From: Escallonia rubra
Lineage: Eukaryota; Streptophyta; Magnoliopsida; Escalloniales; Escalloniaceae
Assembly (NCBI GenBank): GCA_033065855.1
Contig: JAVXUO010001110.1
Location: 1 to 64,000, forward strand
Direction of reading: 5' to 3'
Length of the DNA: 64,000 bases
The translations under genes were made by a program, and so were the position numbers. Shown one piece after another: positions 2,331 to 48,159 of the stretch; the stretch's first letter is position 1, and every line of letters starts with the position of its first letter. A model generated the notes under the pieces. It was not told the origin of the DNA. It searched no databases and saw only the letters and a list, made by a program, of their open reading frames with translations.

Positions 2331-2417
2331 TTTAAATAATTTTTATTCTTCTTTTATTTAATTCTATGACTTGTTGATAATCGTATTGGTTTTTATTTTT
2401 TAGATTTCAGTATAAAT

Positions 2418-4709
2418 ATGGATGCAACTGGAGGAAATATTTTTTGTGAAGGTTCTGATCCACCTTACTTGGGTCAAGTTTTTCAAACACTGGACGAAGT
2501 CGAAGCATACTACAGAGCATATTCGAAATCGATGGGTTTCGGTATTAGAACTAAGACGACTAGAAAACGGGTGAATACCGATCAAATTGGTGCAAGGTTA
2601 TTTGAGTGTCATAGAGGAGCACCGTATGTACCCCCCGTCGTTCAGATCAGTGACGAAGGGACAACAAGACAAAGAAAACGGGACACATTTCCGGGTACCG
2701 GCTGCAAAGCCCATGTGTATGCAGTACACCGGAAAAATGAAAACCATTGGGTTTTGACGGCTGTGGAGTTGAGCCATAATCATCAGTTTTGCACCCCAAG
2801 TATGATTGGTCAAATTCATCAACACCGACAAATAAGCGCGGCACACAGACAACTGATTTCAACAATGGCCGACGCTAAAATATCACCTTCTAAGATGATG
2901 GGGGTTTTCTCAAGCCAGGCTGGGGGGATTGACAAGTTGACTTTCAACGACGTTGACCTTCGAAATCAACTCCGTGCTCAGAGGAGAGAGTCTTTCGGTC
3001 AGATCGATTCTCAAGCTACACTTGATATCTTCAGGTGCCTTCAGAGTGAGAATTCTGGATTTTTCTACAGTCTCCAAGTGGATGATGAGGGCCGCATTAG
3101 TACTATATTTTGGGTGGACCCCCGTTCTAGAGCTGCTTACCAAAATTTTGGGGATGTTGTGACGTTTGACACCACATACCGCACCAATAAGTACTCTATG
3201 CCTTTTGCTCCGTTCACCGGGGTGAACCACCACTATCAGTCAATCTCATTTGGCTTTGCCCTGCTTAGGGATGAGACGGAGGAGTCATTTACGTGGTTAT
3301 TTGAAACGTGGCTTCAAGCCATGTATCATATTCCTCCAAAGACCATCATCACCGACCAAGATCTGGCAATGAATAATGCAATCGCTAAGGTCCTTCCAGA
3401 TACTCACCATGGCCTGTGCACGTGGCACATAAGCAACAAATATCCCGAACGGCTTCACAATGTATATGCAAAGCATCCGGAATTCAAGACTGACTTTAAT
3501 ACATGCGTGAAGAAATCGTTGACGGTAGACGTGTTCGAGGAGAGGTGGGCCGCGTTAATGGATGACTACGGTTTGCACAATCATGGATGGTTAAAATCGT
3601 TGTATGAGATCAAGACACAGTGGGTCGGTGCCTACACCAAGAAGTTTTTTGCTGCCGGAATGACTACGACATCGAGAAGCGAAGCTATGAATTCATTCTT
3701 CGATGGGTACGTAGGTCAGTCTTCAAGTATAGCGGAGTTTGTACTAGAGATGCAGAAAGTCCTTGAGAGGCAATTGTACCGTGAGAGAGAAGCCGACGCG
3801 GCTACAGTTTACAAAGAAAGATCCATACTACTTCGTTCACCATTGGAGGCTCATGCGGCTCAAGTCTATACGAAGGAAATGTTTCGACAGTTTCAAGAGG
3901 AACTATTAAAGTCGAATCAATATGGCATGACAAAGTTGCACGAGTTTTCCACCAGAGATCTCAAGGTTTATGCTTTGACAAATGTGACGAATTATGCCAA
4001 TCCGTGCTCTTCGTCGGCTCCGAGGAACAGAAGACATTTTACCGTAGCTAAATGTATGGACACCGGGTTGGTAAATTGCAACTGTCAACTCTTTGAGCAT
4101 AAAGGTATACTTTGTCGACATGCGTTGAGGGTTTTGAGCGCCAAGAATGCAACTCAAATCCCTCCACAGTATATCTTGGAACGGTGGACGAAGGAAGCCA
4201 ATAGAGTCCACGGTCACATTCCTTACGTGCCCAGTGTTTCAGTTGATTTCAGGGAATCTGAGGCGCTGCGATATAATCATCTTTGTAACATCATGCACGG
4301 TTTATCGATGGATGCAGCGTCAACATTTGATGGGTACACTTATCAAGTTGAAGCAGCCGCACGGGATCATGCTAAGCATGCACAGTTTAGGATGGCATTA
4401 CCAGAAAGTCGGGACCCTCGGCCGACTCCAGCCGGTAGATTCAATCGAGCCAAACAGCCAATCATTGACGGCACTAGCATGCAAGGTGAGGAGGACCACA
4501 TTTTTGATCCCATTATTTCTCAAACAAAAGGGCGAAAACGAGAAATCCGCATGAAGAATCCGATTGAAAAAGCAACGGGTCAAAAAAAATTGCGAAAGTG
4601 TGCGTTGTGTAATAAGATGACTAATCATGACAAGAGAAACCATTACAAAGTGTTAGGTATGGAACCTGGAAGTATGGTCGAGGAGGACGATGAGGAGGAA
4701 GAGTGTTAG
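2418..4709 (+). CDS. MULE transposase (FAR1/MudrA-like), 763 aa
   Basis: This is the DNA-cutting transposase of the surrounding MULE and would act in the nucleus on its TIRs. The reading frame is open over 763 codons without an intron. Residues about 30-122 form a FAR1-type zinc-binding DNA-binding domain (AYYRAYSKSMGF ... TGCKAHVYAV ... HNH). A MULE DDE domain follows: D251 in TFDTTY, D313 in ITDQD, the CTWH block shortly after, and E422 in SRSEAMNSFF as candidate catalytic glutamate. A SWIM zinc finger (C554-x-C556 ... C566-x-H568) and a short C-terminal CxxC/H cluster complete the usual order. The size fits the family. The start follows a T-rich tract ending in AG, so a 5'-UTR intron is possible; TATAAAT lies directly before the ATG. 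A domesticated host FRS/FAR1 gene is unlikely because of the TIRs. No inactivating change was seen. Confidence 0.93.
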   Translation: MDATGGNIFCEGSDPPYLGQVFQTLDEVEAYYRAYSKSMGFGIRTKTTRKRVNTDQIGARLFECHRGAPYVPPVVQISDEGTTRQRKRDTFPGTGCKAHVYAVHRKNENHWVLTAVELSHNHQFCTPSMIGQIHQHRQISAAHRQLISTMADAKISPSKMMGVFSSQAGGIDKLTFNDVDLRNQLRAQRRESFGQIDSQATLDIFRCLQSENSGFFYSLQVDDEGRISTIFWVDPRSRAAYQNFGDVVTFDTTYRTNKYSMPFAPFTGVNHHYQSISFGFALLRDETEESFTWLFETWLQAMYHIPPKTIITDQDLAMNNAIAKVLPDTHHGLCTWHISNKYPERLHNVYAKHPEFKTDFNTCVKKSLTVDVFEERWAALMDDYGLHNHGWLKSLYEIKTQWVGAYTKKFFAAGMTTTSRSEAMNSFFDGYVGQSSSIAEFVLEMQKVLERQLYREREADAATVYKERSILLRSPLEAHAAQVYTKEMFRQFQEELLKSNQYGMTKLHEFSTRDLKVYALTNVTNYANPCSSSAPRNRRHFTVAKCMDTGLVNCNCQLFEHKGILCRHALRVLSAKNATQIPPQYILERWTKEANRVHGHIPYVPSVSVDFRESEALRYNHLCNIMHGLSMDAASTFDGYTYQVEAAARDHAKHAQFRMALPESRDPRPTPAGRFNRAKQPIIDGTSMQGEEDHIFDPIISQTKGRKREIRMKNPIEKATGQKKLRKCALCNKMTNHDKRNHYKVLGMEPGSMVEEDDEEEEC

Positions 4710-4971
4710 GGTTAATGTTTCAGTTGTATAACGAATAACTTTTTTAATGTTTAAATTTGTGATTTGATTTGTTGAATCTTTAATTTGTGATTTGGTTTGT
4801 GGATTATTGAAAATTTTTGAATGGCATATTCGCGCACGCTTTAGCGCCCAATTCATAGGTTCCTGAAAAATCTTTTAATTTGTTTTGTTCATTGCACTTT
4901 AGTCACGCTTTAGTGGCCACTTCATAACTTTCGAAAAATCTTATAAATTTTTTTGTCGCGATTTTTCCGCT

Positions 4972-5706
4972 CATTGCACATGAGGCGCGCTAGTTATCCC
5001 ATTCTTATGTATTTCGGCGAAAAACGAGACACGTTATTTTTTCGGTTTTCCTATGAAGGGCCTATTCGGGCACACTTTAGGGGCCAATTCATAACGCTCG
5101 AAAAATCTTGTAAATTTTTTTCTCACTTTTTTTCCGCTCATTGCACATGAGGCGCGCTAATTATCCCATTCTTATGTATTTCGGCGAAAAACGAGACACG
5201 TTATTTTTTCGGTTTTCCTATGAAGGGCCTATTCGGGCACACTTTAGGGGCCAATTCATAACGCTCGAAAAATCTTGTAAATTTTTTTCTCACTTTTTTT
5301 CCGCTCATTGCACATGAGGCGCGCTAATTATCCCATTCTTATGTATTTCGGCGAAAAACGAGACACGTTATTTTTTCGGTTTTCCTATGAAGGGCCTATT
5401 CGGGCACACTTTAGGGGCCAATTCATAACGCTCGAAAAATCTTGTAAATTTTTTTCTCACTTTTTTTCCGCTCATTGCACATGAGGCGCGCTAATTATCC
5501 CATTCTTATGTATTTCGGCGAAAAACGAGACACGTTATTTTTTCGGTTTTCCTATGAAGGGCCTATTCGGGCACACTTTAGGGGCCAATTCATAACGCTC
5601 GAAAAATCTTGTAAATTTTTTTCTCACTTTTTTTCCGCTCATTGCACATGAGGCGCGCTAATTATCCCATTCTTATGTATTTCGGCGAACAACGAGACAC
5701 GTTATT
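4972..5706. repeat. 167-bp tandem array between the two MULE genes
   Basis: CATTGCACATGAGG recurs at 4972, 5139, 5306, 5473 and 5640, an exact 167-base spacing. Units two to four are almost identical, so the amplification is recent. A diverged related unit precedes the array (about 4830-4970) and the last copy decays after 5706. It fills the space between the 3' ends of the convergent transposase and protease genes and may hold their terminators; that role is inferred from position only. Confidence 0.93.
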
Positions 5707-5821
5707 TTTCCGAATGCGTCATATGAAATGTATATTCGCGCACATTTTAGCGCCAAATTCATAGCATGCGAAAATTTATGTACATTTCTTTCTGGTACAG
5801 TTTGTCGTAACATCACAGCAG

Positions 5822-8794
5822 CTAGCCACACACGTCAGGATAATGGTAATGAAGTCGTCTGGCTTCATTCTTTTTCAGTTCCCAGGCTATCCTATACCTA
5901 AACGTCAAGGCATCCTTCCGGGTCCACGAGGAGTGTTTGAGCACTTCCGATCGAGCAATGTAGTCCATGTACTTGAGGACGTAAATCCCGCAATCGTTAC
6001 CGTTACATTGCTTTGGTCGGTCCTTTATCATCACGACCGTCCAAGGCTCCCCCCGTGGCCGTCCGCACGCTATCGAGAGGACAGTAGTCTGCATCCAACA
6101 ATAAAATCGCGAATCAAGCCTATGAAACAACAACAATATACTATGAGCCAAGGTCAAAAAATAAAAACTAACCACTAAAGTGATGTAGTCGTCGTACATC
6201 TGTGCCAGCAGCTGTCCGGGCTCGTCCTCCCTTAGGCTATCGTATATGTGAACCGTTCTGAACGCTGGATGGAGAACTAATAGGAACCAGTGGTGCCCAT
6301 GAAGACAAGGTATCATGATAAGGTTCGCATCAGCAGCGGGACATTGATACTCTGCGTTCATCATGCATAACATGTTTCGACCTGGTTTCCAATTACTCCA
6401 GTTGCCCCCTTGCTTCCATTGATGGAATTCCCGGATCGCTAATGCCACAAAATGAGTGGGATACATGTTAAGCTTACAGTATTCAGAACGGTTAAATTTA
6501 TGCTCTCTAATCCGGAGCAGATCTATATAAGCGTTGATGACAAAATTTGAAAGATCTGTCTCCGGCGCCAACATTCTGATATCCGAATGACCTAGTCCTG
6601 TCCCAAGAGGGAAGTCTGTTGCACTGACAGGCTCATGCCCGAAGTAGTGCCGGTCGATCCAAGCCATCTTCTCCGGCCTCAATGGCTTCGTCGCTTGTCC
6701 TTTGTTCGACCGGAAACTTGGGCGCGAGGCATGGATTCCTACTTGGGGAACCTTACTCTGGCACAGAGAGTCGTACGCGTCAGGAGGAGGGCGACTAGAC
6801 GGCTCCCACACCTGACTGGAAGTTCCGTAGTCGTACGCGTCAGGAGGAGGGCGACTAGACGGCTCCCACACCTGACTGGAAGTTCCGTAGTCGTACGCGT
6901 CAGGAGGAGGGCGACTAGACGGCTCCCACACCTGACTGGAAGTTCCGTAGTCGTACGCGTCAGGAGGAGGGCGACTAGACGGCTCCCACACCTGACTGGA
7001 AGTTCGGTAGTCGTACGCGTCAGGAGGAGGGCGACTAGACGGCTCCCACACCTGACTCTGAGGCTGATAGTCGTACGCGTCAGGAGGAGGGCGACTAGAC
7101 GGCTCCCCTTGGCAACCCCGGTACGCAAGACTAAAGTTTTGAACATCAGTCTTGTACCTCTCAATGGACCTCTTAATATTGTCAGGAGCCTGCGCGACAA
7201 ACCAGTCAAACGACTCCAGCTGCTTGAAAACGTCAGTGGCCTGGTCAACCTAACAAACATGCATAGAAAATATGGCAAATCATATCATTTGATGGTCGAT
7301 ACGCGTGTGCAAATAAATTATCAAACAACACTAGCATGACTTACAATGGCCAATGCCCAGAACTGGTCATAGACCTCACGGGGCGCATAGGATTTGGTCC
7401 TCACTGGGGCAGGGCGAGTCACCCGCGTGCGCGTCACCCTGAGAAACCACTGTAAGTAGTCCTCAGTACTGGTGCCGTCGTGCTTCATCGATACAAGGCT
7501 GTCATACGTTTCCTGCCAGATATTCCATTGTTGCACCTCGTCACCCAACACAGTCAAGGCATTAGTCACCTCGAAGTTCGGCCCTCGACCACCCCTGTAT
7601 GGCCGCATGTCTACAGCGGGTTTCGGAATCCCCTGTGGACAGCCAGCTTGCTTCATAACTCGATCGGGCATCTGAAACTCACATTCTTCGAAGTGAATCA
7701 GCGGCACCCGAACCAAACCTGCAAGCACGTACGACACCGGAAGTTGCCACCATAACTCATCCAACAGATGCATCACCTTGTCGTATGGCTGCCACGCCAC
7801 CTGGTATGCATCCAGCATCTCTAGTTCCCCCCGATAGAACTGTAGATGGTTGTGAGGGTCTACCCGTCTCCTCCTCCGGTTGGTCGGAGGCCCCCAGGCC
7901 CACACCCTAGGCCACGTCTCATCGGAATCTACCAACGGCTCCGGACGACCCGTGGGTAGCCTCTCGTAAGACCAAACCTGTGAACGCAAACATTATATGG
8001 AATTAGTAATGAATCCCGAATATATTGACTAAGGATCCGGATAAGAAAATAAATGCTCATACCTGTAATAGAGTCAGGCAGGCGGCAATGGACTTGGCAC
8101 CGAATCTCGTAGCCTTATGCAGTGCTCGATATAGGTGCGCAAGGACAGCTGAACCCCACGAGTACGAGTATACCTCGTCAAGATCCTCCAATAACACCAT
8201 ATACCTCGGATGCACTGTGTTTTTCGAGTGCGTCGGAAGTAATATGGCTCCAATAATATACAGAAGGTATGCCCTCGTATACGTCACGAAATCCTGACGA
8301 GAGTACTCATCCGGTAGCACGCCATACTGCTCTCTCAGCCATTTAAGCTTGACGCCGTTCGTTGTAATAGCTGCCCTTGGAATTCCCGGAAAATAATGCC
8401 TAGCCATATTCGCTACGGATGCAGACGGCACGCTCAGAGTAACGGGTCTGCCGTGACATGGGATTCCAAGTATATATCCGACGTCCTCTAACGTAACAGT
8501 CATTTCACCAAACCGGAAATGAAATGAGTTCGTCTCGCTCCTCCATCGTTCAACTAGAGCGGATATAAGGCAATCGTCGTGGCGATACCATTTCCCGCAA
8601 TCGGTGAACAGGCTTAAATTTTGACCGTGTATAAGGGCTTTTTGTTCCTCGTTTAGTACCCACTCTTCAATTCCTCTTGTGGTTTGAATTGTTTCCAAAA
8701 CACCCCTATCGACACCGTCAAATACGTGCCTCGCGACGTGGTCATCGTCATCGTATAGGATTGATGTATCATGAGGTCCGGGGTTGAAATCCAT
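5822..8794 (-). CDS. Plant mobile domain (PMD)-Ulp1/C48 protease fusion, four exons, about 902 aa
   Basis: Inferred exons on the minus strand are 8794-8063, 7977-7345, 7249-6173 and 6088-5822. All junctions are phase 0 with GT/AG borders, giving 902 codons plus stop. Exons 1-2 encode a plant mobile domain (aminotransferase-like PMD: LVERWRSETNSFHF, TLEDVGYILGIP). Exon 3 has a linker of near-identical 20-residue repeats rich in P, S, D and Y (about residues 500-612). Then comes a C48/Ulp1 cysteine protease fold with H775-W776, D792 in IYDSL, Q841 and C847 in NGNDCGIYVLKY, i.e. the full catalytic set. Known: Ulp1-type enzymes process or remove SUMO-like modifiers, and Ulp1-like and PMD genes are recurrent MULE cargo. 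The ATG is 64 bases from the inner edge of the right TIR. Which modifier it cuts is unknown. The exact donor of intron 3 (about 6172) is the least certain boundary. Confidence 0.85.
6780..7110 (-). repeat. 60-bp in-frame minisatellite in the PMD-Ulp1 gene
   Basis: A 60-base unit beginning TCGTACGCGTCAGGAGGAGG is repeated about five and a half times with only a few changes. Because 60 is a multiple of three it encodes tandem 20-residue repeats (core WEPSSRPPPDAYDYGTS) that link the PMD to the protease. Copy number could vary without breaking the frame. Confidence 0.95.
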
Positions 8795-8857
8795 ATCTAT
8801 AAGAACAAAATATAATCGTAATCCAACATATCAGGTTATAATATTTACATTCCAAAC

Positions 8858-22163: not shown

Positions 22164-23819
22164 ATGGTGAGAACTCCATGCTGTGACAAAAGTGGATTGA
22201 AGAAGGGAACTTGGACTCCTGAGGAAGATAAGAAGTTAATCGCTTATGTTACTAAACATGGCTGCTGGAACTGGCGTCAACTTCCCAAGTATGCAGGTAC
22301 CACTTAAAAGGAACCTAGAGAAAAGCCTAATTCTAGTATTCCTGTAGCTTAACTTCATTAATTCTGGTAGTACATGCTTAATTGAAGTGATTCTCCAATT
22401 CTTCTTCTTCTTCTTTTTTTTTTCTTTTCTTGCATGAATGATATTTCTTTACGTGTTTCAGTTTCATGATATATCATGAAACTGAAACGTAAGATATGCC
22501 GTGATAAATTAGGGTTCTTGGCATCGCGTTCATCTTCTTCTAATGCTCTCATGTAATACGATTGCCTTCTGAAGGACTGTCGAGGTGTGGGAAAAGTTGC
22601 AGACTGCGATGGATGAACTATTTGCGGCCAAACATCAAAAGAGGAAATTATAGCAAACAAGAAGAGGATCTCATTGTCAACTTGCACGCATCGCTTGGGA
22701 ATAGGTATTCTGACAAGAAACATTCTACCCACATACATTACCATGATCTCCTCTTTCTTACTTAAAGATTTTAGGGGCTTTAACACTCATGTAATTTCTA
22801 GTATAGCTGCATAGCCCAAACTTCTTTTTGTTCATTTCGCATCACAAAGGGTGCTTGGATATTAGATTGATGATCCAACACCAAACAAAATACGCATGCA
22901 TGTTAAGCTGGAAGATTGTTTTTGCAAGAAAGCAGGCAAAGGGCGGCCAGGCAAATAGATGAAAACTTACACAGAAAGTACTTCTCACCGTGAAAATCAA
23001 GACATCCAACCAATTTATTGGTGTTTGTACAATTAACTGCGTGTTTGTTTTTGTGGCGAAGAAGAAAGAAAGGAAAGTAAAACGTTATAAAACTTGACAA
23101 ACGCAACTATTTTGTCTCTAACGCAATTATTTTGTCTCGCTGCGGTGTCCTCTAGAAACTGGTGCAGGTGATAGGCAAGAAACAGACCTATCCTTTGGAC
23201 CTGGTGCATGCATGTGGCTGGCTCGTTTACCCTGCTAAGTAGTGCATATACATAAATATCTACTTGAGCCATCAAATTGTAAAATGCTACGCAGCTCAAT
23301 TACCAGCCAATCTGTGTCAGAGTTTCATACTTCTCTTGTTTTTTCAGATGGTCAGCCATTGCCGCTCAATTACCAGGGAGAACAGACAATGAGGTTAAGA
23401 ATCACTGGCACACTTACCTCAAAAAACGCTCGGGCCAAAATTCAATCTCCCGTGACTCAAAACTGAGCTCCAAGAAAGACGCGATCATCCAAAAGAAACT
23501 GTTGAAACCCGAACTTTCTCATTTACATAATGCAACCCACCAAATTCTCGAAAGCTCCCCATTTTTGCCACAAACATCTTCAAGCGAGCTTTCATCTTCC
23601 GCTTCGGGAACAGACTGCACAACCCGCGCCACAGAAGATGACGTGTCACCTATGGAAATGTTTGCAGATATCGGGGGGAATTTTTGGACTGAAGTGTTTT
23701 TGGCAGACAATTACCCCACAAATGAACATTTCCTGGCGCCGTTGATCGAGCCTGGAGTTTTATATCCACCTTCTCCTATCATTGGGGAAGAGTTGTTTAG
23801 CTTGTATGGTTTACAATGA
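22164..23819 (+). CDS. R2R3-MYB transcription factor, 244 aa, three exons
   Basis: Exons are 22164-22296, 22575-22704 (130 bases, the canonical R2R3 second exon) and 23348-23819. GT/AG borders join in frame to 245 codons including the stop. The ATG follows a GAGA-rich leader and starts [16 protein letters not shown]2 runs about residues 13-63 with the spaced tryptophans, and R3 about 66-116 with [33 protein letters not shown] joins them. The C-terminal half is acidic and Ser/Thr-rich with [11 protein letters not shown], a plausible activation region. Known: R2R3-MYBs bind CNGTTR or ACC-type sites in the nucleus and control plant metabolism, stress and development. The DNA-binding domain resembles the MYB13/14/15-like group, but subgroup assignment by eye is tentative. 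No bHLH-interaction motif was recognised. The gene looks intact. Confidence 0.93.
22455..22488. repeat. 34-bp perfect palindrome in MYB intron 1
   Basis: The two halves GTTTCAGTTTCATGATA and its reverse complement meet without a spacer; one base outside is inserted before the match resumes (ACGT). It lies near the middle of the first intron and could extrude as a cruciform or fold as an RNA hairpin. Confidence 0.9.
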
Positions 23820-24604
23820 AGGAAGCACTTCCTTGCTGATGTGCAAATTTCAAGAAATAGGAGTTACCCTCACTTATATGTTATTTTTACCTTCTCTCAC
23901 TGCTCATAAAAGTACGGTGACTCAAGGTTGTTCTATTGTAATTTCAAACAAGTTTGAAATGCAAAAACATATTTTTGTAATAATTTTAGTGACAAATGAT
24001 TGTCACTAAAAGAGTTTTGCCGCTGTTGCTAAAATTTGTAGTAACAATATTTTGTTGCTAAAATGAATTTAATTAGCAATATTTTTCTATACTAGAGAAG
24101 TGTTGTACGACGAAGAATTCTAGTCCAACCTTCTCGTGCCAAAACCTTATTAGAGTTGGTGAACCTTTCTTATTACATGCTGAATTTGAGTGAGATTTAT
24201 TTGGTCGAAAACCAGAGGCTACATTAAGTTACTACTTATTCTCAAATCTTTAATTATTAAAAAATTAGTCCAATAATGTGTATCATGCTTTAACACTCTT
24301 CCTCACATGCAATTCACACGGAGAGATAAATTTAGGTACACTATCATCAACTGCAAATGAACAGACTGTAAATTACACTATGATAAAGGGGGACCAAATA
24401 AGCAAGAGGGAAGAGCAGAACCAAACCTTACCAAACTAGAGTTCTGATACTATATTAAGTACCAATTTTTTAAAAAAACTTAAGTTATTACAGAATAAAC
24501 CTAATAATATATATGATGCTTTAATAGGATAAGTGCATTACATCTAAATCTTATGGAGAGTTTACATTCAATGTCAGACCCTTTCTTATTGGCCTTCTTC
24601 CTAT
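23820..24604. other. 3' flank of MYB gene, no gene; CACTA-like subterminal words
   Basis: From about 23985 to 24080 there are repeated words such as GTCACTAAAAG and TTGCTAAAAT, reminiscent of CACTA subterminal repeats seen elsewhere in this window. No terminal CACTA motif was found. The rest is AT-rich. Confidence 0.35.
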
Positions 24605-25700: not shown

Positions 25701-27597
25701 GACATAGAAACTCTTAGAAAAAGGCTATGAAATTGTTATGAAAAATCGTAGTCTTTTCATGAAAGATCCACTTGAAAATTTGGTTGTTAATGTTCCTATG
25801 ACAAGAAAGCGGGTGTTCTTTTAAGTATTCAAAGTGATGTCGCTAAATGTTTGAAGAGTTGCGTTAGAGATTCATCTTGGCTTTGGCATCTAAGGATTAG
25901 GCACCTGCATTTTGGAGGACTAATTTTGTTGTCTATAAAGGAGATGATAAAAGGATCGCCTCATATTAATCATCCAAATCAGCTTTGTGAAGGGTGCATT
26001 TTCGGCAAGCAATTCCGTAAAAGTTTTCCAAAGGAAGTTAATTCAAGAGCCACAAAGCCACTTCAACTTGTTCACTTGCATGTTTGTTGGCCAATCAATC
26101 CACCCTCACTTGTTAAAAACAATTTTTTTTGTTTATTGATTATTTTAGCCGCAAGGCGTGTTTATTTTCTTAAAGAAAAATCAGAGGTGTTTGTCGTTTC
26201 AAGAGGGTTAAGGCTCTTGTTTGAGGAGAAAGTGGTTATGATGTCAAGGCTATAAGATCCTATAGAGGAGACAAATTCACATCAAATGCTTTTAAAAGGT
26301 ATTGTGAAGAAAATAGAATTCGCCATCCTTTAACAATTCCAAGGTCCCACACAACAAAAATGGCATCGCCGAGAGGAAGAGTAGAACCATTCTCAACATG
26401 GCCCGGAGTCTATTGAAGACCAAAAGAATGCCCAAAGAGTTGGAGTAGAAGCTGCTGATTGTGCAGTCCACTTTGTCCCTCTCAAAGTGTTGAAGGTGAG
26501 ACACCATAAGAAGCATGGCATGGAAGAAGCCAAGTGTCTCTCATTTGCGAATTTTTTGTAGCATTGCTTATACGCATGTATCAGATGAGAAGCGGTCCAA
26601 GCTTGATGATAAAAGTGAGAAGTATGTTTTCATTGGCTACGACTCGAGGTCCAAAGGCTACTAGCTTTATAACCCAAGCAATGAAAAGATCATTGTCAGT
26701 TGGGATGTTATATTTGATGTAAGTGCATGGGAATGGAACATTCCGCAAGAAAGTTACAATATTTTCCTTTTTCATGATAGGGAGGAGTAAGAAGATGAAG
26801 ATACGGAAATGGTCATTTCTCCTTTGTCTTCTCCTCAAGTTTCCACACAAGAGGAAGCTTCACCTACTTCAAGTTAGAGTCCACAATGTCGCACAAGTAG
26901 CCTTCACGAGATATGAAGAAACATAAGAGGTAACTCAAAGAATAGGTGATTTGACTCTTTTTTTGTATTTCTGGTGATATTGAACATTTGAGTTTGAGGA
27001 AATGGCTAAAGAAAAGAAATGGAAAAAACGATGGATGAAGAAATTCAATCCATAGAGAAAAACAACACACGGGAGCTGACCATACTTTCAAAAGACCAAA
27101 AAGCAATTAGAATCAAATGGGTGTATAAAGCCAAGAAGAATGCAAGAGGTGAAATAGAGAGGTACAAAAAGCAAGGTTTGTTGCGAAAAGTTATAACCAA
27201 CGACATGGTGTTGACTATGATGAGGTATTTGCACCCGTTGCTCGCTTAGAAACTATTAGATTAATAATTTGGTGGCACAAAATGGTTGAAAAATCCATCA
27301 AATGGACGTAAAATTGGCCTTTTTAAATGGCCTCCTTGAAGAGAAGGTGTATGTTGAGAAACCCACGGGCTTTGTCATGAAAGGGCAAGAAGACAAAGTT
27401 CTTAAGTTGATGAAAACATTCTATGACCAAGAGTTAGGAATAGTAGATTTGACAAGTATTTTCAAGCCAATAACTTCTCCAAGTGTCCTCACGAGCATGC
27501 TCTTTATGCAAAAGTGAGTGGTGATGGAGATATCTTACTTGCTTGCTTGTATAAACATTACTTTCTTTTTATAGGGAATAACCAAAGCATGTTTAAG
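25700..27597 (+). mobile_element. Ty1/copia retrotransposon fossil (GAG-pre-integrase, integrase, start of RT)
   Basis: Translated pieces show the order expected of copia pol. First a GAG-pre-integrase zinc motif (WLWHLRIRHL ... CEGCIFGKQ), then integrase segments, then the copia-type linker, then the beginning of the reverse transcriptase ([34 protein letters not shown]). It is clearly broken, with several interruptions, and no LTRs were identified. The right side ends abruptly at about 27597 against CACTA-type sequence. An old degraded copy. Confidence 0.82.
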
Positions 27598-27714
27598 GTA
27601 GCGACGATATTTTCCGTCACTAAAAATTCCCATCGCTTTGGCTTTTAGCGACATACTTTTAGCAACAGAATATTCCGTCGCAAAAAGTCCTATCATAAAA
27701 GCCCTAATTTTTCC

Positions 27715-28550
27715 CTCTTCTTTCCACAGCCGCGGATGAAGTCCATCCCCCTCCACTCCCATTCTCTCAGCTCCACAGCCCACTGCCTCTGTCGCCTCCA
27801 ACAGCCACCGACCACCGCCTCTATCTCTTTTCTCCGACGTATCTGTTAATGCGCAAATAACCCACCTCCACTGCCTCCAACTGCAACGTCGCCGCCCCCT
27901 CCATCTTGGAATGTCGCCGTCGCCTCCATCATCTTTCTTTGGCAGATCTACCACTGCACTGGGTATGTCATCTACCACCGCCTCCATCTCTCAAATCTAC
28001 CCCTATTATTTGACTTGATGTGTTAGATACCACACTATTTGATGCGAAATGATGTTAGATGGCTTTAAGTTTTGTTGATGAGCAAATTCAGCCTTGGAGT
28101 GTTAAATGCTTGAATCTCTATGATAGTCTGCTATTTGAGATTGTCATTCGGTTACCCAATAGATAAATTCAGCTTTGCCCCTGTAGAAGCAAATTGAGAT
28201 TGTCATTTATTGTTTTATTGATTTCATTGATGGTATTAGCAATTTTGTTGAGATTGTCATCTTTTCTACTAGCAGATTGATGAATGAGGCTAGTTTGGTA
28301 TAAATTTAAATCAAGATCGAACTAGTAGCAGATTAATGAATAAGGCTTTGCACTTCTATCTATGTACTTTTTCCTTGTGATTTCTGTATGTTAAAGTTGA
28401 AGTATAAGTGTTTGAGCTAGGTGTGTTAGAATTTTAGGGTTTGCTGTTGATTGGGGCCATGTCTTATATCTCGAGTCAATTTGGTATTTTGTTTCATCTG
28501 GATCAAACTATGAGATAATGGAAGCTAATGTCACAATTGTCAGAGATACC
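27715..28550. other. GC-rich then AT-rich internal part of CACTA A, no gene
   Basis: The first 280 bases are rich in CCACC/CGCC on +, like the 5' region of the other CACTA elements at 48190-48410 and, inverted, 39540-39790. No domain was recognised. The rest is AT-rich. Confidence 0.5.
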
Positions 28551-28555
28551 GCCAA

Positions 28556-30360
28556 AATGGCATGCTAAACTAATAGCAAATTAGCCATTAATTTAAGTAA
28601 ACCAAATTAACCCTAATCAAACCATAATTATCCATAATCTATCCAATTAATAGTAATTAACCCCGAGTAACCCTAATTGAACGAATTAATCCCAATTGAC
28701 CCTGACTGAACCAATTAATTATAATTAATCCTTATACAACCTAATTGAACCAATTAGCCCTAATTAATCCCGATTTATCCTAATTGAACCAATAAACCCT
28801 AATTAGCCCTTATTAATCCTAATTGAATCAATTAACCGTAATTAGCCCCGATTAAACCTAGTTGAACCAGTTAACCTTAATCCCTAAACCCTAATTAAAT
28901 CCTAATTAGCCCGGATAAACCCTAATTACTTCTAATGAAGCCTAATTAATCGAAGAACATCCAAATTACTCGAATTACATCCGAATTAGCCTAATAAAGC
29001 CTAAGTACATCCAAATTACTCAAAGTACATGTTAGAATTATTATGATTTAATTTTTTGTGAAATGTCCTTTATTCCATTAAATGCAAAACTTACATGCCT
29101 ATGTTTATGTACGTTCTACATAGTACACTAAACCTTCAATTAATATGTCGTATCCCTATTTCATCAATCCATCATTCCCTGCTTAGTGCTATATTCTTGG
29201 CATTTGCTGTGACTTGTTGAATTATTCTGATTATAGTTAATTAGAATTATTTTTTTCTCAAGTTATTCTGATGTCGAAGTGTTCTTTCTGATTTTTAGAA
29301 TTGTTGTAATGTGAGTTTTAGAAATTGATGCCGTAGCCCCTTTGATTGATAGTTGGAAGTTATATGAAAATTGAATCCCTCTATAAGGGGTAACTGTAAG
29401 AAAATAATTTTTATTAACCCCGTTTAACCCCTAACACATCCCTACGCAACCCTAATTAACTATAATTAACCCTAATTAACCCTGATTCCCCATAATTAAA
29501 CCTAGTTAACCCTGAACAACCCTAATTAACCCGGATTAACTGTAATTAACTCCGATTCACCCTTATTAGACCTAATTAACTTATATTAAACCTAAATAAC
29601 CCTGATTAGCCCTAAGTAAACATAATTAACCCTGATTAACCCTAATTAGCCCTGATTAACCCTAATTTAACCCCGATTATCCCCTAACACATTTCTAGGT
29701 AACCCTAATTAACCCTAACTAAACTCTATTTAAACTCTATTAATATATTCCTAATTAACCATAATTATCCTAAGTACAATCTAACCCTAACTATATACTT
29801 AAACCCTGGACTCAATTAGAGGTGGGACAATATCAGCTCTGCGAATGAACTCAACGAATTCTAAAGTGACTCAATCACAGTTAACCCTAATTAACACATT
29901 AACTCTAATTAACCTTAATTCGCTCTTACTTAAACTCTAATTAACAATAGTTAAGTCTAATTAAACTCATTTAACCTTATTTAGGTCGAATTAGCCCTCA
30001 TTAGCATTAACCCTATTTAACTCGAATTAGCCTTATTAGCCCTAATCGGCCCTAATTAGCCCTAATTAAAACTAATTAACCATAATTAATATTAGTCAAG
30101 CCTAATTTACTGTTAATTTAATCTCTAATCAACCCTAATCACTGCTGATTAACCTAATTAAACCTTGATTGTCTTGATAAATCGTAGACAAACCCTAATT
30201 AAACCCAGTTAGGGTAATTAATTGTAATATGTTCTAATTAGGCTCAACTAGCCCTAAGTTGCTTGAATTAGCCTGAATTAATCCCTGAATAACACTAATT
30301 GAGTCTAATTAAATGCAATTAACTGTAATCAACCTTAAATAGCTCGAATTGCCCCTAATT
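28556..30360. repeat. Degenerate AACCCTAATTA array with telo-box motifs
   Basis: About 1.8 kb built from variants of AACCCTAATT in changing order. Exact telo-box words AAACCCTAA occur at 28794, 28886, 28917 and 30190. A non-array stretch lies at about 29035-29400. It resembles, but is not, telomeric CCCTAAA sequence. The inverse form (TTAGGGTTAATC) is found at 31390-31750 and 34390-35010. Confidence 0.85.
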
Positions 30361-30404
30361 AACACATAAACTCCGCATTTTCACCTTAATTAGCTCTTAT
30401 CTAT

Positions 30405-30848
30405 TTAGGTTCGGTACAAAATCATTTGGTTATAGTGAATTTGAGCAGATAAATTAAATCATCATTCATAAATCCTTCAATATGTAACGATCCACAAAAT
30501 CAGGATTCTCAAGTAAACCCGGTGCTTTTGGTTGGTATGTGATGGACTCAAAAATTTTCCTTAGCGCGTCATGTTGAACCATCTCGTCTAAGATCTTATC
30601 TTTCGAGACTTCAGATAACACTTTTGGTTCGCAACTCTCCATGTCTGCAGAAGACTTTCTGAGACAAATTTAAAGTCTTCCTCAGCCCGTCGTAAACATT
30701 TCCTGCCCTCCATTGTTCCTGAGGTAATTAGATGGTATATATACACAGTTTTCTTCTGACCAATCCTGTATGCCCGACATATGGTTTATTTTTCAACTGA
30801 TGGGTTCCAACCAATATCAAGCAAAACAACTCTCGACGCCCCAACCAG
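30405..30848 (-). pseudogene. SNF2 helicase C-terminal fragment, CLASSY-like (left arm)
   Basis: The minus strand translates to GASRVVLLDIGWNPSVEK, a stop, then TICRAYRIGQKKTVYIYHLI, which are SNF2/SF2 helicase motifs V-VI, followed by a tail containing VLSEVSKDKILDEMVQHD. The tail resembles plant CLASSY/DRD1-type remodellers, which work in RNA-directed DNA methylation; that assignment is from memory of the family. It has at least one stop and one frame change and covers only the C-terminal end, so it is a captured gene fragment, not a gene. Confidence 0.75.
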
Positions 30849-30950
30849 GGCCGATTAGGGCTAATTCGAGCTAAATAGGGTTATTGCTAATGAGGGCTAA
30901 TTCGAGCTAAATGAGGTTTGAAAGGCAAGCTATGTGGGGCATAAATTTGG

Positions 30951-31373
30951 TTGGGGCGACGAGATTTGTGTTGCAATCCATCAGTTGAAAGGAAAGTCAT
31001 ATGTCGGGCATACGAGATCGGTCTGAAGAAAACTGTGTGTATTTATCATCTAATTACCTCAGGAACAATGGAGGGAAGGGAATGTTGGCTACAGGCTGAG
31101 AAAGATCTTTTGTCTCAAAAAGTCTTCTCTTCTGCAGACATGGAGAGTTGCGAGCCAAAAGTATTATCTGAAGTCCCGGAAGATAAGATCTTTGACGAGA
31201 TGGTTCAACATGACGAGCTGATGGAAATTTTTGAGTCCATTACTTACCAACCAAAAGCACTGGGTTTACTTGAGAATCCCGATTTAGTGGATCGTAAGAT
31301 ATTAAAGGATTTAGGAATGATGATTTTCTCTACTCAAGTTCACTATAACCAAATGATTTTATACCGAACCTAA
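30951..31373 (+). pseudogene. SNF2 helicase C-terminal fragment, CLASSY-like (right arm)
   Basis: This is the inverted copy of the left arm. It keeps an open frame of 140 codons with NPSVERKVICRAYEIGLKKT, YHLITSGTMEGRECW and EVPEDKIFDEMVQHDELMEI. It lacks the motif V part present in the left arm because of a small deletion, and the RIGQ box reads EIGL, so helicase function is not expected. It may be transcribed as part of a CACTA transcript; that is inference. Confidence 0.75.
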
Positions 31374-31749
31374 ATAGATAATAGCTAATTAAGGTGAAAA
31401 TGTCAAGTTAATGCGTTAATTAGGGGCAATTAGGGCAATTCGAGCTATTTAGGGTTGATTACAGTTAATTACGTTTAATGTGACTCAATTAGTGTTATTC
31501 AGGGATTAATTGGGCTAATTCGGGCTAGTTGAGCCTAATTAGAACATATTACATTTAATTACCTAACTGGATTTAATTATAATTTGTCTACGATTTATCA
31601 GGACAATCAGGGTTTAATTAGGTTAATCAGCAGTGATTAGGGCAGATTAGAGATTAAATTAATAGTAAATTAGGATTAATTAATGTTAATCAGTTTAAAT
31701 TAGGGCTAATCAGAGTTTAAATTAACAATAAATTAGGGTTAATCAATTT

Positions 31750-32250
31750 TAATTATATGACTGCACGTGCCGTGATAAGAGCATCGTGATAAAAGTGTCC
31801 CCACCCCCTGCTGCATCTCCACAGACGCAGACACCGACCCTGGAGCGCTCGTCGTTACATGAGGACGAGGTCTGTTGCGTTGCTGCTGTGGTTTATAGGA
31901 GGATCAGGGCGCATAATCAGGTACAACCACTATACACGTTTAATTATTGAAAATATACGATTGTTATCGAGATTATTACGTCTATGCCTTTACATGTAGG
32001 GCACTGCTGCATCCGGGACTCGCCGAACCCTGATCAGCCCTTCCACTCCTAGAACTTTGTATCCCGCTCCTGTGCCCCCTCCCCCCAAACTTGTACTCGC
32101 TTCCCCTACTCTATTAGTGTACCCCGCTCTCGTGCCCTCTTGAATTTTGTATACATTTTATTGTTGGATTGTAATTGTAAGATTGTTGTTGTTGGATTGT
32201 GATAACAATGTTTAGGTATAAAAAAATTAATTTTTTTTAAAAAAAATTAG
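31750..32250. other. Captured-looking GC-rich segment in CACTA A, no gene recognised
   Basis: Two GC-rich blocks (31790-31920 and 31995-32150) are split by an AT-rich part that begins and ends like an intron (GGTACA ... TGTAG|GGC). The short peptides show no domain known to me. It could be the exon remnant of another captured gene. Confidence 0.35.
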
Positions 32251-32661
32251 TTTGACTTTTAGCGACAGACTTTATTCCGTTGCTAAAAGTTTACTTATTG
32301 TGAAGGAACGATTTTTTGCGATGGAATTTCTGTCGCTAAAGCTTTATACGACGAAATTTAGCGATGGAATTTCGTCGTTAAATATTTTACGTAATAAATT
32401 ATTACAAAAAAAATTAATTAATTAAAATACAGAAAATAGAATTAGTGACGAAAACGCCGTTGGCAATTGTGTTTGTATGTCCGTCGTTGAAGGTGGACTT
32501 TAGGCGACGTATTGAAATAATTGGTCGCAAAACTTTTAGAGACGGGGTTGTAGGCAACGAAGTTTTAGCGACGGGTAGTCCGTCGCTAAAACTCTTTTCC
32601 GAGGATTAAGTAATTTTAGTGACGGAATTTTCCTTCGCTAAAAGTCCTTTTTCTTGTCGTG

Positions 32662-34277
32662 TCTTCTGGTACCCCAAACCAAGTTTCATCATCATTTTCT
32701 TAGCACTATAGTGTGTCAAGCAACTTCTCATCCTTTGGCAACATTTCTTTATTAAGATTTAGAAAAGCATCAAAACCTCTATCACTTAGACCATGCTCAG
32801 ACTTTAAGTGCAGCATCGTTGTCACAGCAGATAACTTGGTGTGCTTTGTACTTCCATTCCATATTGGCTCCTCAGAGTCTTTTAACAATTTATAAAACTT
32901 TTGTTCACTCAGGTTTGGCTCTTCTTTCACATTAGGATTACCATCGTTAAAAAAGTTATCCCAGTTAATCCCACTAGGCCCAGCTAGGGCTGTATACAAA
33001 CCGAGTTCTAGCCGAATAGCAGTGTGTTCAAATTCAGTTCGTATATTTGTAGAGATGTTTGAGCTCGGCTTGTGTTCATTTAAGAGCCAAACATGGTCGT
33101 CAACGCACAACTCAGGCTCGACTCGGCTCGTTCTTCTAAAGAAACAAATTGAATCAACGATCGAAAAAATGGCCGGAGAAATGACCGGAGAAGAGATGAA
33201 GTCGAAGTTTTTCTCGATCTTAACAAATATCAAAGATTTGGAGTCGTAAAGGATCCCAGATCTGATCGAGGTAAAGCCAGATCTGTGTGGATGAGCAGCT
33301 GTCGTTTGTGGACCAGTGGCCTGACTTGGCGAAGGTCTAGCCGGCGATGTGGGCGATGGTTTGGCCGGCGGTATGCTTGTGTAATGAGCGAGAGAGAAAG
33401 AGAGAGAGCAGCTAGTGTTTGACTGTTCGAGTGTCTGAGGGAAGGCCGCGGCGTGGGGGGTGATCTGGCTGACGGTAAGGGTGATGGTCTGGGCGACGGT
33501 GTGCCCGTATGATGACTACGAATATTGGCCGGCGGTGTGGGTGTTTGACTGTTGAGTGTCTGTGTCTCTAATGAGATGAGGAAAATGAACTTAGTGATAG
33601 AGAGAGGAAGCATGGGTGATCCACATGCTTCCATGTCCCAACACAAGGCATAGATATTTTGTGCTAGGTTTGTAATATATATTATATTTTTTTAATGAAT
33701 AAATGAGCCGATGTTTGTTTATAAGGCTCGGCTCGTGTTCGGCTCGTTAAGTAAACGAGCCCTCTTGTTCATGAACATTAATAAACAAACATCATCATGT
33801 TCAAACTCGACTCGTTTAATTAGCGAGCTCGAAAATTATGTTCGTGTTCTGTTCATTTATTACATGAACGAGTTTCAGAGAGAACGAACAGCAAGTTGTT
33901 CGTAAATAACTCGGTTCATTTACAGCCCTAAGCCCAGCTTCCATTACCATATGTTGATATTTAGAAAATTCCAGATCTCTAGTACTATATTGTTTGAACT
34001 CATTGGACACCCTTAGAATTGGTTCCCCGTGCTGAGTCCAATTCGTATAGTTACTCATAAAACCTTTACGGAGGAGATCATAAGTTACATCGTCGAGGAT
34101 TTTCCAACTTAACAGCTGGCAATCATTGCACGGACATTTAATCGTGCCGTCATCCACCAAGTCTCGTTGATTCAAAGCAAAGAGAATAAACCCGTTCACT
34201 CCATGTCTAAACTCTTCCGATACCCCAATCTCACTTGGAGTAATCCTCCGTTGCATCCAACTTCTATCCACTGACAT
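32662..34277 (-). pseudogene. CACTA (En/Spm) TNP2-type transposase, N-terminal part, split by a hAT insertion
   Basis: On the minus strand, 34277-33931 encodes a transposon-associated domain (SVDRSWMQRR ... CPCNDCQL ... YTNWTQHGEP). After the inserted hAT element the frame continues in 32984-32706 with GPSGINWDNFFND and FYKLLKDSEEPIW...TMLHLKSEHGLS, typical of TNP2 transposases, and then AKKMMMKLGLGYQK beyond a stop. It ends at the right terminus of CACTA element A. Only the N-terminal quarter or so of a TNP2 protein is left; the catalytic part is absent. Non-functional remnant of CACTA element B. Confidence 0.85.
32985..33930. mobile_element. Non-autonomous hAT element (946 bp) inserted in TNP2 pseudogene
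   Basis: The ends TAGGGCTGTA and TACAGCCCTA are inverse copies. Flanks GGCCCAGC (32977-32984) and AGCCCAGC (33931-33938) form an 8-base target duplication with one difference. Inside are CGGCTCG-type words common in plant hAT MITEs and a GC-rich centre. The ORFs here are proline-rich and non-conserved. Confidence 0.85.
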
Positions 34278-34389
34278 GATATATACCTCTCACTGCCTGT
34301 TGAACCTATACAAGTCGAGTTCCAATTTAACCTTTAACTTGAAAAAAATATATTGAGTAGTCACTTACGAATGAACATGAAAAAGCTAA

Positions 34390-35010
34390 AGATTAACTAG
34401 AATAAGAATAATCAGTGTTGATTACGGCTAATTAGGGTTAATCAGTGTTAATCAGGACTAATTAGGGGTTGATTAGGCTAATCGGGGCTAATTCGAGCTA
34501 TTTGGGGTATTTATAGTTAAATGATTTAATTAGAGTTAATAAACGTCAATTATGCTTTAATTAATAGTTAATTAGGATTAGTCAGTGTTGATTAGGGCTA
34601 CTTATGATTAATCAGTGTTGATTAGGGCTAATTAGGGTTAATCAGTATTAATCAGTGTTAATTAAGGCTGATTAGACTAAATAGGATTAATCAGTGTTGA
34701 TTAGGGCTAATCAGGGTTAATCAGTGTTAATTAGCGCTAATTAGGACTGATTAAGCTAATCACGGCTAATTCGAGCTGTTTGGGGTAATTTATAGTTAAT
34801 TGGTTTAATTAGAGTTAATAACCGTCAATTAGGCTTTAATTCAGAGTTAATTAGGATTAATTAGTGTTGATTAGGGCTACTTAGGATTAATCAGTGTTGA
34901 TTAGGGCTAAATAGGGTTAATTAGTGTTAATTAGGGCTGATTAGGCTAATCAGGGCTAATTCGAGCTATTTGAGGTAATTTATAGTTAATTGGCTTAATT
35001 AGAGTTAAAC
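34390..35010. repeat. TTAGGGTTAATCAG array in CACTA B
   Basis: Variants of GGGTTAATCAGTGTTAATTA repeat about every 13-15 bases, in part as larger repeated blocks (about 34430-34800 resembles 34800-35010). It is the inverse type of the array at 28556-30360. Confidence 0.85.
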
Positions 35011-47950: not shown

Positions 47951-48159
47951 CACTACAAGAAAATTAGGATTTTGCGATGGACTTTTAGCGACGGAAGTAA
48001 TTCCGTTGCTAAAACGTCTTTCAGCGACGGATAAACCTGTTTGTAAAATGTCCGTCGTTAAAACATTATAAGCGACAAAAAGTTACCATCGCTAAAAAGT
48101 CCGTCGTTAAATATATCTTTTGTCGACGGGCTTTTAGTGACGGTGTCATTCCGATGCTA

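Follow-up and report, generated by a model that had tools for sequence, protein, structure and literature searches.

An amplified non-autonomous CACTA family of Escallonia rubra carries a long inverted repeat of a CLSY/DRD1-type gene fragment: a possible anti-silencing hairpin

Could a transposon turn a captured piece of a host silencing gene into double-stranded RNA against that gene? The question is raised by 64,000 nucleotides of Escallonia rubra DNA (contig JAVXUO010001110.1, positions 1 to 64,000; hereafter the window), in which a near-palindrome at 30062–31713 lies inside a CACTA element. An earlier note on this DNA had described two inverted copies of an SNF2 helicase C-terminus here and had suggested a hairpin aimed at a CLASSY (CLSY) gene. 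CLSY is an SNF2 cofactor of RNA polymerase IV.

The near-palindrome and the element that carries it

Both inverted copies were confirmed by blastn, gapped alignment and folding, with a spacing of 90 bases. Blastn of the region on itself gave 85.5% identity between the arms over 763 columns, a gapped alignment gave 658 identical columns out of 745, and a repeat scan of the window also detected the inverted repeat. Arm A (30393–30847, minus strand; blastn with the C2428 gene described below, and translation) contains the end of the coding region and the 3′ flank of a CLSY-type gene, so that the gene piece is antisense on the plus strand. It is followed by a loop of 90 bases (30848–30937; blastn bounds and fold) and by arm B (30938–31385, plus strand; blastn with the C2428 gene), which holds the same piece in sense orientation. 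Outside the gene-derived arms, the inverted repeat extends into a minisatellite-like outer stem of the TTAACCCTAATT type on the left (30062–30392, plus strand) and into its inverted copy on the right (31386–31713, plus strand). The plus strand of 30420–31390 folds at −604.8 kcal/mol, compared with −239.4 kcal/mol (s.d. 6.7) in 20 shuffles (z −54); the pairing of this stem is far beyond chance.

Helicase motif VI had been given as RAYRIGQ, which holds for one arm and not for the other. By translation the motif is intact in arm A, but a stop and frameshifts interrupt the reading frame there; arm B has a 142-aa frame open to 31373, with the motif decayed to RAYEIGL. This 142-aa frame matched no Pfam family over the cut-off. 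In PDB sequence searches, the best matches were general SNF2 proteins, with no CLSY entry among the matches listed, and an Rfam scan of the whole window at gathering scores gave no match.

The surrounding element is a non-autonomous CACTA copy at about 27598–32661, the span over which pieces of a relative, L022, align. Alignments of L019, L020, L022, L024 and L027 all stop at window position 32661, where the right ends of L019, L020, L024 and L027 read ...TTGTAGTG; the right end of L022 reads CACTATAACAAAAA. A pattern scan of the window placed the right terminus CACGACAAGAAAA at 32649–32661 on the minus strand (CACTACAAGAAAA in relatives). The left end of the window copy is gone, because the alignment with L022 starts only at 27598, and L022 continues 296 bases further leftward to its left terminus; the window copy has the right terminus only. 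The left part of the element is minisatellite-like (28560–30061; sequence, motif counts and matches in relatives), and its truncated end adjoins a Copia-type retroelement remnant at 25791–27597 on the plus strand (gag_pre-integrs domain, Copia continuation by eye). Termini of the CACTACAAGAAAA type stand at both ends of L014, L020, L022 and L024, with exact 3-bp target duplications in three of them (GAT/GAT in L014 and L020, CGA/CGA in L022) and an imperfect one in L024 (flanks ACA/ACC). Together with the right terminus at 32661, these relatives bear out the placement of the near-palindrome inside a CACTA element. The four full-length copies measure 4724, 5103, 5410 and 6671 bases. Judged by frame length only, they lack a TNP2-type transposase frame, the longest stop-to-stop frame being 153 aa, and they are therefore non-autonomous. 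Captured host-gene DNA, the mark of Pack-CACTA elements, lies inside all 39 sampled loci in the form of arm A, by which the loci had been chosen.

To the right of the element, 32709–35000 holds a CACTA transposase-type remnant (Transpos_assoc, 33819–34289, minus strand, Pfam) with a minisatellite at 34380–35000 that resembles that of the hairpin family; the remnant could be a relative of the family's autonomous partner. It is interrupted at 32985–33930 by a hAT-like insertion whose 10-bp inverted ends read TAGGGCTGTA/TACAGCCCTA and whose 8-bp target duplication is imperfect, both by eye. The pattern scan found another CACTACAAGAAAA terminus at 47951–47963.

The hairpin family and its source gene

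A DNA search of the species' own genome (566,129,122 bases in 3222 contigs) gave at least 84 matches to an arm A query, many of them as inverted pairs, with the best 40 of 464 first-look candidates scored. Our sample, selected by similarity to arm A, comprised 39 loci: 19 of up to 9.9 kb, 19 of 1.3–1.8 kb, and the window. A twentieth long locus, L017, is 99.8% identical to L016 over 8004 bases and was left out of the consensus and the locus counts, whereas L019 and L027 were both retained though they are probable haplotigs of one insertion (98.5% over 9131 columns). Both arms are present in 34 of the 39 loci. Of these, 33 fold as a hairpin, and the other, L020, has its arms split by an insertion, for which it was omitted from the 16-copy consensus and from the folds; L051 has both arms, and its arm B is missing from the arm-comparison figures and the tree. 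Arm A and all or part of the loop DNA occur without arm B in L012, L037 and L038, while L016 has neither loop nor arm B and L023 has a single arm.

A 30-base pattern spanning the junction of loop and arm B, with at most 3 mismatches allowed, was found at 98 places genome-wide (51 forward, 47 reverse), part of which are haplotig duplicates; the reversed pattern, used as a control, was found at none. The pattern recovered 31 of the 34 two-arm loci and none of the other five, and it excluded the gene itself, which has 4 mismatches. A query from a DRD1-like gene, which also met presumed hairpin copies through its last 46 residues, reached 26 further places by hand count, 7 of them within 200 bases of a loop/arm-B junction; the 26 presumably belong to the same family. 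These data indicate that the hairpin is no isolated event but a trait of the family, which numbers about a hundred copies. The consensus arms are identical at 731 of 748 positions (97.7%); thus, at the time of the family's spread, the stem was close to perfect. The 16-copy consensus palindrome folds at −1333 kcal/mol.

The search for the source gene that the earlier note had called for drew on 82 PF00176 matches in the genome, from which four loci were read and two contigs extended. It led to a gene on C2428, against which the hairpin consensus scores 220 bits, compared with 58–78 bits against the three other CLSY/DRD1-type genes read. The C-terminus of the C2428 protein matches the consensus at 109 of 127 positions, with the stop at the same codon, and the protein has SNF2 and Helicase_C domains over the Pfam cut-off. 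On these scores and the common stop, an unrelated SNF2 family was rejected as the source. The CLASSY-like origin claimed earlier thus stands as far as a CLSY/DRD1-type gene of this genome; its finer label is provisional. We take the C2428 gene to be putatively of the CLSY3/4 type, by elimination among the types in this genome, and we likewise assume that C2685 is CLSY1/2-like and that C1924 and C3003 are DRD1-like. The C2428 gene is 33–35% identical to the two other types, and identity between all types is 30–35%; a DRD1-like identity for it was dropped after side-by-side protein comparison, both labels being provisional. C1563, 99.2% identical to C2428 over 6.7 kb, is probably its other haplotype, and both have a helicase exon free of stops over 641 aa. 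The C2428 gene has a long last exon and one upstream exon-like frame, the first exon not being found in the fetched DNA. A study of this family gives three exons for most CLSY3/4 genes (18 of 22) and recognizes, next to one moss protein, the three clades CLSY1/2, CLSY3/4 and DRD1 (PMC12389316).

Consensus arm A keeps an uninterrupted frame of 120 codons down to the stop. It differs from the gene at 34 of 363 nt, 21 of these at third positions, when a 21-nt duplication is left out; dS is 0.30 and dN 0.053. The 21-nt duplication is present in today's gene, within the region that the hairpin matches, and together with the dS value it means that the matching between hairpin and gene has weakened. 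Exact 21-mers in common with the gene number 69 in consensus A and 29 in consensus B, 29 and 16 in arms A and B of the window, and between 5 and 60 across 20 A arms. A live effect of the window copy on the gene is disfavored by its missing left end, its diverged arms and its few common 21-mers. Because the differences are mostly at third positions, yet the copies drift without a third-position excess, most of the difference arose under protein constraint, which would place it in genes that were still functional, whether earlier than the element or in parallel with it. What the element captured may thus have been a paralogue, or else an older allele. The mostly synonymous differences between gene and consensus fit either RNA-target co-evolution or capture from an older functional relative.

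Other pieces of the gene are also dispersed in the genome. A query of the 483 aa that precede the hairpin piece (31 matches, 49 of 49 candidates scored) found the two intact copies and 21 matches of 62–85% identity at 16 other loci, which may not be independent captures. Two of the 16, L054 and L055, hold the gene stretches 4081–4534 and 6228–6339, with 5839–5890 in L055 only. By blastn with the gene, these pieces lie at L054 982–1586 and L055 681–1133; they are not inverted and have no similarity to the 21 hairpin-family stretches compared. Their flanks are 83–87% alike on both sides, and the two loci therefore belong to one repeat family. A CACTA-type terminus was looked for in the fetched L054/L055 DNA and none was found, and a 115-aa frame beside the gene piece had no Pfam match. 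For two control genes, a small set for this comparison, queries of equal length found no pieces of their own at 50% identity or more. With the CLSY1/2-like query, all 21 candidates were scored, and the 11 matches held nothing of the kind beyond the gene itself; with the DRD1-like query, 88 of 257 candidates were scored, and the 49 matches held nothing of the kind beyond the genes themselves and the presumed hairpin copies.

Order of events and decay of the copies

Capture of the gene piece, its inverted duplication and its amplification are recorded in the copies themselves. The mean divergence of single arms from their own consensus is 5.5% for A and 6.1% for B. In a FastTree tree, the 33 B arms group in a single clade (support 0.943) and the A arms are star-like, with L023 placed next to the gene at weaker support (0.795). 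L023 is collinear with the gene for 30–40 bases beyond the boundary of either arm (L023 4351–4900) and, past the gene piece, continues with no loop straight into the minisatellite and the element's right half; it is the only copy read with a longer, pre-duplication single capture. The simplest history would be capture, a single-arm element, one inverted duplication that included the minisatellite, a burst and then decay. Within the 3′ flank of the gene, 688 nt are missing from the hairpin. Capture from a spliced mRNA was considered for this break and rejected: inspected by eye, the break lacks GT..AG and its two sides overlap by 3 nt (GGA), so that a deletion or template jump is likelier than splicing.

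Transitions pooled over 37 arms reach 12.4% at CG, 10.5% at CHG, 5.7% at CHH and 1.3% at A/T sites; since they are commonest at CG and CHG, the host seems to have methylated the copies. Raw CHH transitions amount to 5.2% and 6.5% in the arms and 4.5–6.7% in five other segments of the element, a further segment with 2 copies giving no CHH rates, and there is no clear raw CHH excess in the arms over these five that would signal arm-directed methylation. Relative to transversions, CHH decay is 3.2 and 3.4 in the arms, higher than in four of the five segments (1.6–2.8) and equal to one (3.4).

An asymmetry of the kind that preserves pairing was seen neither in 72 arms of the 39 loci (plus-strand C>T 793/10376, G>A 788/9697, p 0.21) nor within the window copy (GU/AC 28 to 23, p 0.58), and these tests gave no sign of selection for pairing. 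Coding constraint was likewise not seen among the copies, which have no third-position excess. Arms of the same copy are slightly more alike than shuffled pairs (0.889 versus 0.884 over 33 loci, reached in 0 of 5000 shuffles), for which subfamilies, haplotig duplicates or gene conversion can each suffice. Individual copies thus give no clear sign of having been kept as RNA genes, as far as their sequences suggest, which says nothing on the master element during the burst.

Possible roles of the hairpin

The reading that we put forward, at somewhat less than an even chance, is an anti-silencing hairpin against the CLSY gene, carried by the amplified CACTA family. A non-autonomous CACTA would have captured the 3′ end of a putative CLSY3/4-type gene, and the captured piece would have been duplicated once in inverted orientation before spreading to roughly a hundred copies. 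Read-through transcripts of the ~740-bp stem, nearly perfect at the time of spread, would be cut by Dicer-like enzymes into 21–24-nt siRNAs matching the CLSY gene; these would lower CLSY expression, and the silencing of the hairpin family and of other elements would weaken. The window copy would be a decayed member of the family. Transcription, dicing, silencing of the gene and benefit to the element are what we infer from the DNA, and the scheme is plausible on that footing. About equally likely, and so also a little short of even, is that the hairpin is a passive passenger, produced by ordinary Pack-CACTA transduplication with a palindrome that arose from repair during transposition and never regulated the gene. 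Gene capture by CACTA elements is established (PMC13317346). The outer stem consists of minisatellite that belongs to the element itself, which means that the duplication was not aimed at the gene piece in particular, and the window arms are equally alike in the gene part (88.5%) and in the minisatellite (88.1%; gapped alignment). The freedom of the copies from coding and pairing constraint agrees with a passenger as well, although most transposon copies should be free in this way once inserted, and little about the master element follows from it. A passenger accounts less readily for the prevalence of the hairpin form in the sample and for a second repeat family with pieces of the same gene, when none was found for two related genes (for the DRD1-like one, among 88 of 257 candidates scored).

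Prevalence of the hairpin form also weighs against a self-silencing trigger, in which, after the manner of maize Mu killer, hairpin siRNAs would mainly methylate their own family, and perhaps the gene, at the element's cost. We regard this as quite improbable, even though CG and CHG decay is strong over the 37 pooled arms and inverted repeats of a methylation gene in Arabidopsis Cvi give siRNAs that act in cis and in trans (PMC13213937). CHH decay points both ways here, being higher in the arms than in most other segments relative to transversions and not raised in raw terms. It is very improbable that arm B acted through a peptide, a truncated CLSY C-terminus interfering with the full protein. 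Consensus arm B is open from its own ATG to the natural stop (133 aa), L014 keeps this frame whole, and the A and B consensuses differ by 7 synonymous and 6 non-synonymous changes; however, the copies have no third-position excess, motif VI is already changed to RAYGIGL in consensus arm B, and the consensus frame is interrupted by one or more stops in 11 of 17 B arms. Both the self-silencing trigger and the peptide are less likely than a source of double-stranded RNA or a passive passenger. A wider account, rather unlikely as a whole, is that in this plant lineage mobile elements raided one RNA-directed-methylation gene repeatedly, sparing its CLSY1/2 and DRD1 relatives, that one CACTA lineage made a double-stranded RNA gene against CLSY3/4, that the inverted duplication triggered the burst, and that the gene has since drifted away from the hairpin by synonymous changes and the 21-nt duplication.

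The earlier note had drawn a parallel with maize Mu killer, which is reportedly a long hairpin from rearranged transposon DNA that acts against its own family; it is not known to carry a host gene piece. TART-A of Drosophila is a retroelement, its setting the piRNA pathway, and is not known to have an inverted duplication of its nxf2 piece. An RNA-based attack of plant transposons on the silencing machinery has, to our knowledge, one worked case, miR820 against DRM2. The analogy with miR820 and OsDRM2 is closer than that with Mu killer. In rice, the miR820 fold-back lies in a CACTA element, resembles OsDRM2 and lowers it (PMC3459959). Common to both systems are a CACTA host, multiple copies and a fold-back derived from a gene of RNA-directed DNA methylation, a role that for the Escallonia gene goes with its putative CLSY label. 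The Escallonia stem differs in being ~740 bp long and not a miRNA precursor, and its gene is putatively of the CLSY3/4 type. The junction pattern occurs at 98 places in Escallonia, whereas the rice paper counts 5 miR820 copies in Nipponbare and at least 18 in the BB genome (PMC3459959).

Pack-CACTA or Pack-TYPE transduplication likewise yields non-autonomous CACTA elements with captured gene DNA (PMC13317346); in Escallonia the captured piece was inverted-duplicated before the burst, and the gene resembles a silencing factor. An inverted repeat of DNA-methylation genes is known from the Arabidopsis Cvi VIM4-VIM2 locus, which yields siRNAs that lower a relative; it is a single host locus, in contrast to the mobile family described here (PMC13213937). 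Drosophila TART-A with its nxf2 piece is reportedly also a transposon that carries sequence of a silencing-pathway gene (PMC7785250).

Our literature search found no paper joining CLASSY, CACTA and a gene fragment, and none combining CACTA, inverted repeat, hairpin, siRNA and a captured gene. If the anti-silencing reading is true, this large CACTA family with its long CLSY hairpin would be the second such case after miR820, and its target would be a factor that decides where Pol IV is active. The copies preserve the order of capture, inverted duplication, burst and methylation decay, so that ordinary small-RNA and expression data could be used to test for an arms race. Should the hairpin be silent, the family is still a clear record of a long palindrome forming and spreading inside a transposon.

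Elsewhere in the window, 2370–8830 contains a 779-aa frame with MULE transposase, FAR1 and SWIM domains (Pfam), near which lie a Ulp1-type peptidase frame (5822–7249, minus strand) and a plant mobile domain frame (8057–8830, minus strand). The stretch is possibly a MULE that has captured a Ulp1; among Vandal elements, MULEs of this kind have been connected with anti-silencing (PMC13317346). An R2R3-MYB-type gene occupies 22164–23820, with the Myb domain in 23283–23816 (Pfam) and the first exon assigned by eye.
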